A DNA stretch of 64,000 bases from assembly GCF_907165195.1 (NCBI RefSeq), contig NZ_OU015584.1, forward strand, positions 248,001 to 312,000, given 5' to 3'. Below the pieces are notes generated by a model. The model saw only the letters and a list, made by a program, of their open reading frames with translations. It did no database searches and was not told where the DNA came from. This DNA comes from Parvicella tangerina. GTDB lineage: Bacteria > Bacteroidota > Bacteroidia > Flavobacteriales_D > Parvicellaceae. A program made the translations under genes and the position numbers. Positions 28,234-30,443 of this stretch are shown here, in pieces. The first letter of the stretch is position 1; each line of letters opens with the position of its first letter.

Positions 28234-28767
28234 ATGATGATATTAGCTTGGATAGGGGTAGGTCTGTTTGGATTAGCCTTGATCATTGTTATAATTGGCT
28301 TCCTGATGCCCAAGCAGGCATATATGAAGAGAGAAGTTATCATCAACTCTGATAAGCAGACGATCTTTGCTTATGCAAATGATCTTAAAAAGTTTGTTGA
28401 GAACTGGTCACCATGGACAGAAAAAGATCCTGATATGGAGACAATCTATGAAGGAGCTGATGCTGGTGTAGGAGCCGTTTATAAATGGAAGGGTGATAAA
28501 AAGAAAGTGGGGTATGGAACTATGAAAATCGTTGAGTCCGTACCTGACGAGAAGGTAGTTAGTTTTTTGAACTTTGGAGGTAGAGGAGATGCAGAGGTAA
28601 CGCTGAGGTTGGAAGGAAGTGATGGAGAAGTTAAAGCTATTTGGGAATACGCTGCGGATAATGGTAATAATCCAATAGCAAGAATATTTGGGTCCATGAT
28701 GGATAAATTTCTCGGTCCAGACTTTGAAAAAGGATTGAAAAAGTTGAAGGAGGTTTGTGAAGATTGA
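28234..28767 (+). CDS. SRPBCC (polyketide cyclase-like) family membrane protein
   Basis: A 177-aa protein with one N-terminal TM helix (AWIGVGLFGLALIIVIIGFL) and a START/SRPBCC-type domain (KREVIINSDKQTIFAYANDLKKFVENWSPWTEKDP, about 31-65, up to the C-terminal helix). This matches the polyketide_cyc2-like proteins that bind a hydrophobic ligand. Substrate is unknown. The start is the tandem ATGATG at 28234. The stop codon lies one base before the left arm of the four-helix-bundle cassette. Confidence 0.75.
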   Translation: MMILAWIGVGLFGLALIIVIIGFLMPKQAYMKREVIINSDKQTIFAYANDLKKFVENWSPWTEKDPDMETIYEGADAGVGAVYKWKGDKKKVGYGTMKIVESVPDEKVVSFLNFGGRGDAEVTLRLEGSDGEVKAIWEYAADNGNNPIARIFGSMMDKFLGPDFEKGLKKLKEVCED

Positions 28768-28768
28768 A

Positions 28769-28803
28769 GTAAAACGTAATTTGTAAAATGTATAACGTTT
28801 TAC
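28769..28803. repeat. left arm: inverted repeat GTAAAACGT / ACGTTTTAC
   Basis: A perfect 9-bp inverted repeat (28769-28777 with 28795-28803, 17-nt spacer). The same sequence recurs in the right arm (29192-29200 and 29213-29222) on the other side of the small gene. Confidence 0.8.
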
Positions 28804-28825
28804 CGAATGAGAAGAGTATCAGGTT

Positions 28826-29176
28826 ATGAATAACTTTAAAGAATTGAATGTATGGAAAGAGGCTATTTCTATGGCTTCCGAAGTTTATTCATTTTGTAAA
28901 CGACTTCCACAAGAGGAGAAGTTTGGTATAATTTCACAGATACAAAGATCCTCAGTTTCTGTCAGCTCGAATATTGCTGAAGGGGCGGGTAGAAACAACA
29001 AAGGAGAGTTTTACCATTTTTTAGGAATTGCTCGAGGATCTGCGAGCGAAACAATGTCCTTACTATATTTGTGTATTGAAGTTGGATTTTCAAACGAATC
29101 TGAATTGACTGATTTAATAGATAAAATAGACAAGATTCAAAATATGATATTTAGATTACAACAGTCTTTGAAATAA
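28826..29176 (+). CDS. four-helix-bundle protein (S23 / bAvd-like family)
   Basis: A 116-aa helical protein. It shows the family pattern: N-terminal FKELNVWKEAISMASEVYSF, then SQIQRSSVSVSSNIAEGAGR and the C-terminal FYHFLGIARGSASETMSLL. It is homologous to the S23 proteins encoded in 23S rRNA intervening sequences and to the accessory variability determinant of diversity-generating retroelements, but no rRNA, reverse transcriptase or template repeat is present. Free-standing copies are frequent in Bacteroidota; their function is unknown, and RNA or nucleic-acid binding is assumed. It is enclosed by inverted GTAAAACGTA arms. Confidence 0.9.
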   Translation: MNNFKELNVWKEAISMASEVYSFCKRLPQEEKFGIISQIQRSSVSVSSNIAEGAGRNNKGEFYHFLGIARGSASETMSLLYLCIEVGFSNESELTDLIDKIDKIQNMIFRLQQSLK

Positions 29177-29191
29177 GAATAGTTACTCAAA

Positions 29192-29222
29192 ACGTTTTAC
29201 GTCTTTTCGGAATACGTTTTAC
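29192..29222. repeat. right arm: two direct copies of ACGTTTTAC
   Basis: Direct copies at 29192-29200 and 29214-29222; the second, as TACGTTTTAC (29213-29222), is the reverse complement of the left-most ten bases of the cassette. Confidence 0.8.
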
Positions 29223-29234
29223 AATAAAAGAAAC

Positions 29235-30443
29235 ATGAAAGCAGCATACATTTTAGACGCAATTAGAACACCCGTTGGTAATTTTGGAGGAACACTGGCT
29301 CCTGTGAGAGCAGATGATTTAGGTGCAATTGTAATGAAAGAGTTGGTGAACCGAAATCCTTCTATGGATGTGAATGAAATTGAAGATGTGCTTTTTGGTT
29401 GTGCGAATCAAGCAGGTGAGGATAACAGAAACGTAGCAAGAATGTCTTTGCTTTTAGCTGGACTTCCAACAACGATTGGTGGAGAAACGGTGAATAGACT
29501 ATGTTCTTCAGGAATGGCGTCAACTATTAATGCGCACAGAGCAATTGCCATGGGAGATGGTGACCTCTATATCACAGGAGGTTTAGAACACATGACCAGA
29601 GGACCTTGGGTAATTTCTAAGGTATCCAAGCCTTTTGGTAGGGATGCAGAGATGCACGATTCCTCATTTGGATGGCGCTTTGTTAATCCCAAGATGAAGG
29701 AGATGTATGGTGTTGATGGAATGGGAGTCACTGCAGAGAACTTAGTGGAGATGTATAACATCAGCAGAGAAGACCAAGATCAATTTGCGTATTGGTCTCA
29801 GATGAAAGCTGCCAAAGCACAACAATCAGGAAGATTAGCAGAGGAAATTATTCCGGTATCTATTCCTCAGAGAAAGAAAGATCCAATCATTTTTGATCAG
29901 GATGAATTCATCAAACCAAATACTACGCTTGAAAAATTAGGAACACTTAGAGCGGTTTTCAAAAGAGAAGGAGGAAGTGTAACTGCAGGAAATGCTTCTG
30001 GGTTAAATGATGGTGCAGCAGCAATTCTTTTGGGTTCTGAAGAAGCTGCAAAGAGAAATGGATTAACACCTAAGGCTAGAATTGTGAGTAGTGCCGTGGC
30101 AGGTGTTGAGCCAAGAATTATGGGAATCGGACCTGTTGAAGCCAGTAGAAAAGCGTTGAAAAGAGCCGGTTTAACAATGGATCAAATGGATATCATTGAA
30201 CTCAATGAAGCATTTGCCGCACAAAGTTTAGCTTGTACGAGAGCAATGGGATTAGCAGATAATGACCCAAGAATTAACCCTAATGGTGGAGCGATCGCTA
30301 TCGGTCACCCTCTTGGAATGACGGGAGCTAGAATTCTACAAACGGCTAGCATTGAGTTACATAAGCAAAATAAGAAATACGCTTTGGTGACGATGTGTAT
30401 TGGAGTTGGACAAGGATACGCAACTGTGATCGAAAGAGTATAA
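29235..30443 (+). CDS. thiolase (acetyl-CoA acyltransferase)
   Basis: A 402-aa thiolase. It has the acyl-enzyme Cys in NRLCSSGMAS (about residue 90), the GHPLGMTGAR His motif and the C-terminal second Cys in CIGVGQG. The length and a QAGEDNRNVARMSLLLAGLP block are close to the beta-ketoadipyl-CoA/3-ketoacyl-CoA thiolase group. It should cleave a 3-ketoacyl-CoA with CoA, in fatty-acid or aromatic degradation; no other beta-oxidation gene is in the window. It follows the four-helix-bundle cassette and is 17 nt upstream of the DUF1801-like gene. Confidence 0.93.
   Translation: MKAAYILDAIRTPVGNFGGTLAPVRADDLGAIVMKELVNRNPSMDVNEIEDVLFGCANQAGEDNRNVARMSLLLAGLPTTIGGETVNRLCSSGMASTINAHRAIAMGDGDLYITGGLEHMTRGPWVISKVSKPFGRDAEMHDSSFGWRFVNPKMKEMYGVDGMGVTAENLVEMYNISREDQDQFAYWSQMKAAKAQQSGRLAEEIIPVSIPQRKKDPIIFDQDEFIKPNTTLEKLGTLRAVFKREGGSVTAGNASGLNDGAAAILLGSEEAAKRNGLTPKARIVSSAVAGVEPRIMGIGPVEASRKALKRAGLTMDQMDIIELNEAFAAQSLACTRAMGLADNDPRINPNGGAIAIGHPLGMTGARILQTASIELHKQNKKYALVTMCIGVGQGYATVIERV

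Follow-up and report, generated by a model that had tools for sequence, protein, structure and literature searches.

The window, that is, the whole 64-kb stretch of DNA analysed here, contains a 454-bp cassette (28769-29222) that lies not in a 23S rRNA helix but between two protein-coding genes of the plus strand. The upstream neighbour is an SRPBCC, or polyketide-cyclase-like, gene (28234-28767), and the downstream neighbour encodes a 3-oxoadipyl-CoA thiolase of the pcaF type (29235-30443; TIGR02430, 609.7 bits vs the cut-off of 597). The sole gene of the cassette (28826-29176, plus strand) encodes a 116-aa four helix bundle protein of the S23 family, also known as 23S rRNA intervening-sequence proteins (IVP). 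Both pertinent profiles recognize this protein far above their cut-offs, namely, PF05635 (23S_rRNA_IVP; E 3e-36, 124.2 bits vs the curated cut-off of 33.8) and TIGR02436 (four helix bundle protein; 2.8e-34, 117.6 vs 24 bits), and it also matches XCC0516 (PDB 2gsc) at 1.5e-16. There is no transposase within the cassette.

The cassette starts 1 nt past the stop codon of the SRPBCC gene (TGA, 28765-28767) and ends 12 nt before the thiolase ATG (29235). Its outer left end is GTAAAACGTA (28769-28778, plus strand), its outer right end is TACGTTTTAC (29213-29222, minus strand), and inner copies of ACGTTTTAC are located at 28795-28803 and 29192-29200. The original prediction had given these limits, ends and inner copies exact to the base, was correct on the distances to both neighbours, and had likewise recognized the S23-type gene as the only one inside and the absence of a transposase. 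The 10-bp terminal repeats it described are present but are only part of the structure because each arm is an array of units of about 7 bp. The left arm (28769-28803, plus strand) consists of the degenerate units GTAAAAC GTAATTT GTAAAAT GTATAAC GTTTTAC, and the right arm (29186-29222, minus strand), which is inverted relative to the left one, reads CTCAAAA CGTTTTA CGTCTTTT CGGAATA CGTTTTA C. The inverted match between the two arms extends over 19 nt at 79%, and the left array folds as a hairpin on its own. The 64-kb window contains the motif GTAAAACGTW at 4 places, each within the cassette, vs 0.22 expected copies, and no shuffle reached 4. When 464 kb of the same genome were scanned for inverted pairs at S23-like spacing, the window cassette ranked first.

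The outer ends coincide with the boundaries of an insertion. The empty SRPBCC-thiolase site that the original prediction proposed to look for is present in two congeners, G027 and G026, in which the same SRPBCC and pcaF genes are separated by 13 and 12 nt, respectively, without a cassette; excision of 28769-29222 from the window leaves a 13-nt spacer. In another genome, G028, S23 is also absent before pcaF, but the upstream gene differs. No target-site duplication is visible at the window insertion, where the divergence of the empty sites leaves room for one of 2-3 bp.

The genome, a single contig of 3.98 Mb, carries 9 PF05635 genes, most of which are flanked by inverted arms with a unit sequence of their own. 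With one of these paralogues, located between fadB and fadA, the window cassette aligns across the gene and both arms (GTAAAACGTxxTxxGTAAAATGTATAA in the left arm). In the S23 tree, which is built on few columns and includes many weak forks, the window copy is nested within the fadB|fadA clade of this genome and related genera (SH-aLRT 82/85/99). A fadB|fadA-lineage cassette is the most likely ancestor of the window copy, which would have been acquired once this genome had diverged from G027 and G026. Both junctions precede a thiolase gene, and the start sequences of the two thiolases are similar, so that local homologous recombination could have aided this jump.

Comparisons among other S23 loci point in the same direction. 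Between two loci from different genera (L143 and L144), the S23 genes are 90% identical at the DNA level, the adjacent 100 bp are 79-84% identical, and the flanking genes only 72-73%; on these comparative grounds, the identity gradient demonstrates horizontal transfer of a related cassette. Relocation is apparent from the sister S23 genes of L097 and L101, which occupy different junctions, and replacement at one site from L097 and L094, which have similar flanks but S23 genes that are just 67% identical. The groES|groEL junction of Flavobacterium is filled in at least 6 species, other species have almost no spacer there (14 and 36 nt), and in G373 and G371, it holds inverted heptad forms without S23. 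Three Flavobacterium groES|groEL loci (L231, L232 and L234) contain inverted heptad arms around a loop of about 75 nt, with the S23 gene absent, and resemble miniature derivatives of the cassette.

Taken as a whole, the sequence data support mobility of the S23 cassettes. We consider it probable, at roughly two chances in three, that the window element is a mobile DNA cassette, in which an S23 gene is enclosed between inverted arrays of 7-bp units, and that it was inserted exactly in the gap of about 13 nt within a co-directional gene pair belonging to a single transcription unit.

The arms are a recurrent feature of S23 loci. The main survey comprised 127 S23/PF05635 loci, drawn from Bacteroidota as well as from other phyla; one of the locus sets was selected by similarity of the S23 protein, not by arms, and over-represents relatives of the window gene. 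Across these loci, identity at lag 7 is 0.388/0.386 in the two S23 flanks compared to 0.307/0.318 at the outer ends of the neighbour genes, and other lags yield about 0.28. Among 51 loci of the phylum, lag-7 identity is 0.37 in both flanks vs 0.25 at a distance of 600-900 bp, with further peaks at 14 and 21. An inverted left-right arm score of at least 16 is reached at 49% of the loci vs 0 of 58 outer controls; a strong match is, accordingly, absent from about half of the loci. When left and right arms from different loci are paired, only about 2% match in inverted orientation. The unit logo, C T N A N N N, is the same whether derived from 58 right arms or from 67 left arms (the latter inverted), and some Flavobacterium-like loci have 8-bp units instead. 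The arms also extend beyond Bacteroidota, to Clostridia, Betaproteobacteria, Bosea, Brevundimonas, a cyanobacterium and Kiritimatiellae, and surround most of the S23 genes on contigs classified as viral.

The cassettes have in common that their arms are built of 7-bp units and inverted; the arm sequence itself varies from cassette to cassette. The expectation that GTAAAACGTA ends would recur around other cassettes, therefore, is not borne out: the arms are element-specific, and only the fadB|fadA paralogue has arms recognizably homologous to those of the window. Among close relatives that share a site, arms of the same side are more alike than the two arms of a single cassette, which indicates that the arms are mostly inherited. 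The converse relationship, with a cassette's own arms more alike than the same-side arms of relatives, was considered and rejected as a rule because it holds for distant pairs only.

S23/IVP genes are present in 236 of the 297 sampled Bacteroidota genomes, with counts that reach 15 or more per genome in this analysis. At 109 of the 117 loci with two callable neighbours, the S23 gene is oriented in the same direction as both. These 117 loci are spread over 65 different gene pairs and often split the genes of one enzyme or pathway. By gene names that were assigned from start and end peptides judged by eye (only the window genes were profile-scanned), the sites include fadB|fadA (22), thiolase|acyl-CoA dehydrogenase (8), sdhA|sdhB (5), cysD|cysN (5), nuoC|nuoD (3), carA|carB (2) and mutA|mutB (2), as well as groES|groEL. 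In G000 (2389338-2391305; L002 and L003), two cassettes reside 1.6 kb apart in the arrangement fadB|S23|fadA|S23|acyl-CoA dehydrogenase, and G027 has the same double arrangement. The S23 genes of L026 and L027 contain in-frame stops and appear to be decaying copies.

Residence within operons could also be expected of an ordinary host gene that is inherited vertically, with the 7-bp arrays being intergenic microsatellites produced by polymerase slippage. Some sites indeed retain S23 across genera, heptad arrays without S23 exist elsewhere in the same genome, and in many bacteria, heptamers are given as the most frequent class of long simple repeats (Mrazek 2007, here through its citation in PMC4679880). 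Furthermore, S23 is under purifying selection, with dN/dS of 0.04-0.19 in ten pairs of S23 genes including the transferred one, so the protein must be of value either to the element or to its host. The empty sites, the transfer between genera without the flanks and the presence of different S23 lineages at one site contradict this account, and slippage alone does not account for inverted arms that bracket a single gene family across many phyla. As a full explanation, vertical descent combined with slippage is refuted, and we give it hardly any credence.

The operonic location and the co-orientation with host genes are also compatible with an RNA-level role, as an mRNA form of the intervening sequences (IVS) of 23S rRNA. 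Under this explanation, the arms pair in the transcript, with the S23 gene in the loop, RNase III trims the structure, the host genes stay coupled, and complementarity is maintained by RNA folding. In the predicted RNA fold of the window, the arms do close the element (z -2.2), and there is a precedent in the IVS of Coxiella burnetii, an RNase III substrate with 7-nt repeats immediately 5' of the S23 ORF (PMC4990558). Selection for pairing in the sense strand should produce an excess of G-U among the arm mismatches, but G-U and A-C are about equally frequent (100 vs 107, p 0.68, 81 loci), which favours a role of the arms at the DNA level; moreover, S23 cassettes vary as to whether their arm length suffices for RNase III. 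Hence we view the RNA-level explanation as unlikely, though not negligible.

The Coxiella IVS is described as a selfish element of 428-444 nt with complementary ends and, by the S23 ORF, tandem heptamers GACAGAT whose copy number varies among strains (PMC4990558). It resembles the 454-bp window cassette in the protein family, the size, the complementary ends around a single ORF and the 7-nt repeats next to that ORF. The differences are that cassettes of the window type lie between protein genes rather than in rRNA (none of 20 S23 loci outside Bacteroidota has an rRNA location), occupy many sites in many copies per genome, and have arms that behave as DNA repeats. The Coxiella heptamers fit the inverted-heptad pattern, and the source paper did not generalize them (PMC4990558).

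Movement through RNA, which the original prediction had entertained, could involve S23 acting like its homolog Avd, with a reverse transcriptase (RT) supplied in trans. S23 shares a related four-helix-bundle fold with Avd of the diversity-generating retroelements (PMC10053308), and the genome with the window cassette encodes two RTs, in both cases of the group II intron type and located elsewhere (L174 and L175; identical 423-aa proteins with RVT_1 and GIIM domains). Unlike Avd systems, the window cassette contains neither an RT gene nor template or variable repeats, and no RT adjoins S23 in its ORF neighbourhood. Nor is there a link at the genome level: RVT_1 and S23 copy numbers are unrelated, and 24 of the 48 S23-rich genomes lack RVT_1 (Fisher p 0.64), including single-contig genomes with 10-15 S23 copies. 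Given that RT presence does not follow S23 copy number and that the arm mismatches show no G-U excess, the RNA route finds no support, and we regard retro-mobilization as very improbable. The notion of an autonomous or trans-mobilized S23 cassette thus survives in part: the discrete insertion with arms of its own stands, and relatives display transfer and relocation, but the shared ends and the route through RNA are not supported.

With regard to trans-mobilization at the DNA level, one set of candidates is the Y1 (HUH, RAYT or IS200-like) transposases, which might mobilize the cassettes via the arm hairpins in the way REPINs are mobilized. In 297 Bacteroidota genomes, S23 and Y1 copy numbers are correlated (rho 0.58; partial correlation controlling for genome size 0.44 in S23-positive genomes); the correlation persists inside most of the large families, phylogeny being treated at the family level only. 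Y1 is present in 47 of the 48 S23-rich genomes, and neither DDE_Tnp_1 nor RT shows such an association with S23. On the other side of the ledger, the flanks of Y1 genes contain REP-like palindromes without the 7-bp period of the S23 arms (lag 7, 0.27/0.24), and nine genomes with at least 7 S23 genes lack Y1. Because of these two observations, we do not adopt Y1 as the mobilizing enzyme and consider such a mechanism improbable.

The cassettes nevertheless share several features with MITEs and with REPINs associated with RAYT (Y1) (PMC3116915), being small inverted-repeat units without a transposase that have mini forms devoid of S23 and a copy number that follows Y1. They depart from these elements in that the arms are element-specific 7-bp arrays, not a shared REP, and in that they carry a conserved protein. 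No MITE parent sharing the cassette ends was found among Y1 genes, whose flanks are free of 7-bp arms, and the window cassette does not qualify as a REPIN, given the different arm sequences among cassettes and the single Y1 gene in the genome.

Returning to the mobile DNA cassette, we can envisage the following mechanism. Read-through transcription of the host operon would provide for expression of the cassette, and an S23 oligomer could bind the arm DNA of its own element, exposed as a hairpin or cruciform at replication. The arm-bound S23 might then aid copying or joining, with strand transfer performed by a host or trans-acting enzyme, for which a Y1 HUH transposase would be a candidate by copy-number correlation only. 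The arms would drift through slippage of their units and yet stay complementary to each other, perhaps via template switching between the arms. A far broader proposition, to which we assign a low probability, casts the S23 cassettes as a class of selfish DNA spread throughout bacteria and mobilized by S23 itself acting on inverted 7-bp arrays, without a classical transposase or RT, such that the rRNA IVS would represent one niche.

To our knowledge, S23/IVP genes have no known function. The common anatomy, that is, inverted 7-bp arrays, co-directional insertion into operons, empty sites and inter-genus transfer, turns this family into a testable class of mobile elements, offers a common origin for the puzzling intervening sequences of rRNA, and suggests where some of the heptamer repeats in many genomes come from. 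The element seems to be widespread and not previously described in this form. In the open-licence literature, to which the search extended, we found no account of cassettes in which an S23 gene with inverted heptad arms lies between protein genes, and nothing that ties S23 genes to such arms beyond the Coxiella note; with subscription journals outside its scope, this silence is weak evidence.

Heptamer direct repeats have been reported in Beggiatoaceae, Cyanobacteria, Bacteroidetes and Xanthomonas (PMC4679880, PMC4692102). Like the S23 arms, these are 7-nt, intergenic and degenerate, but the two papers treat direct repeats, with no link to S23 genes, whereas the S23 arms are inverted pairs around S23. 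Heptad arrays are not exclusive to S23, a possibility that was considered and rejected because some ORFs without a Pfam match also have long arrays nearby. At two places in the genome that carries the window cassette (L196, 13117-15400, at 3.91 Mb, and L184, 17134-17388, at 1.62 Mb), ORFs of 219-234 aa (MAKAKGIF.. and MAKATSIV..), neither of which has a match in Pfam, have long 7-bp unit arrays on both sides or upstream; these ORFs are possibly another cargo of heptad arrays.
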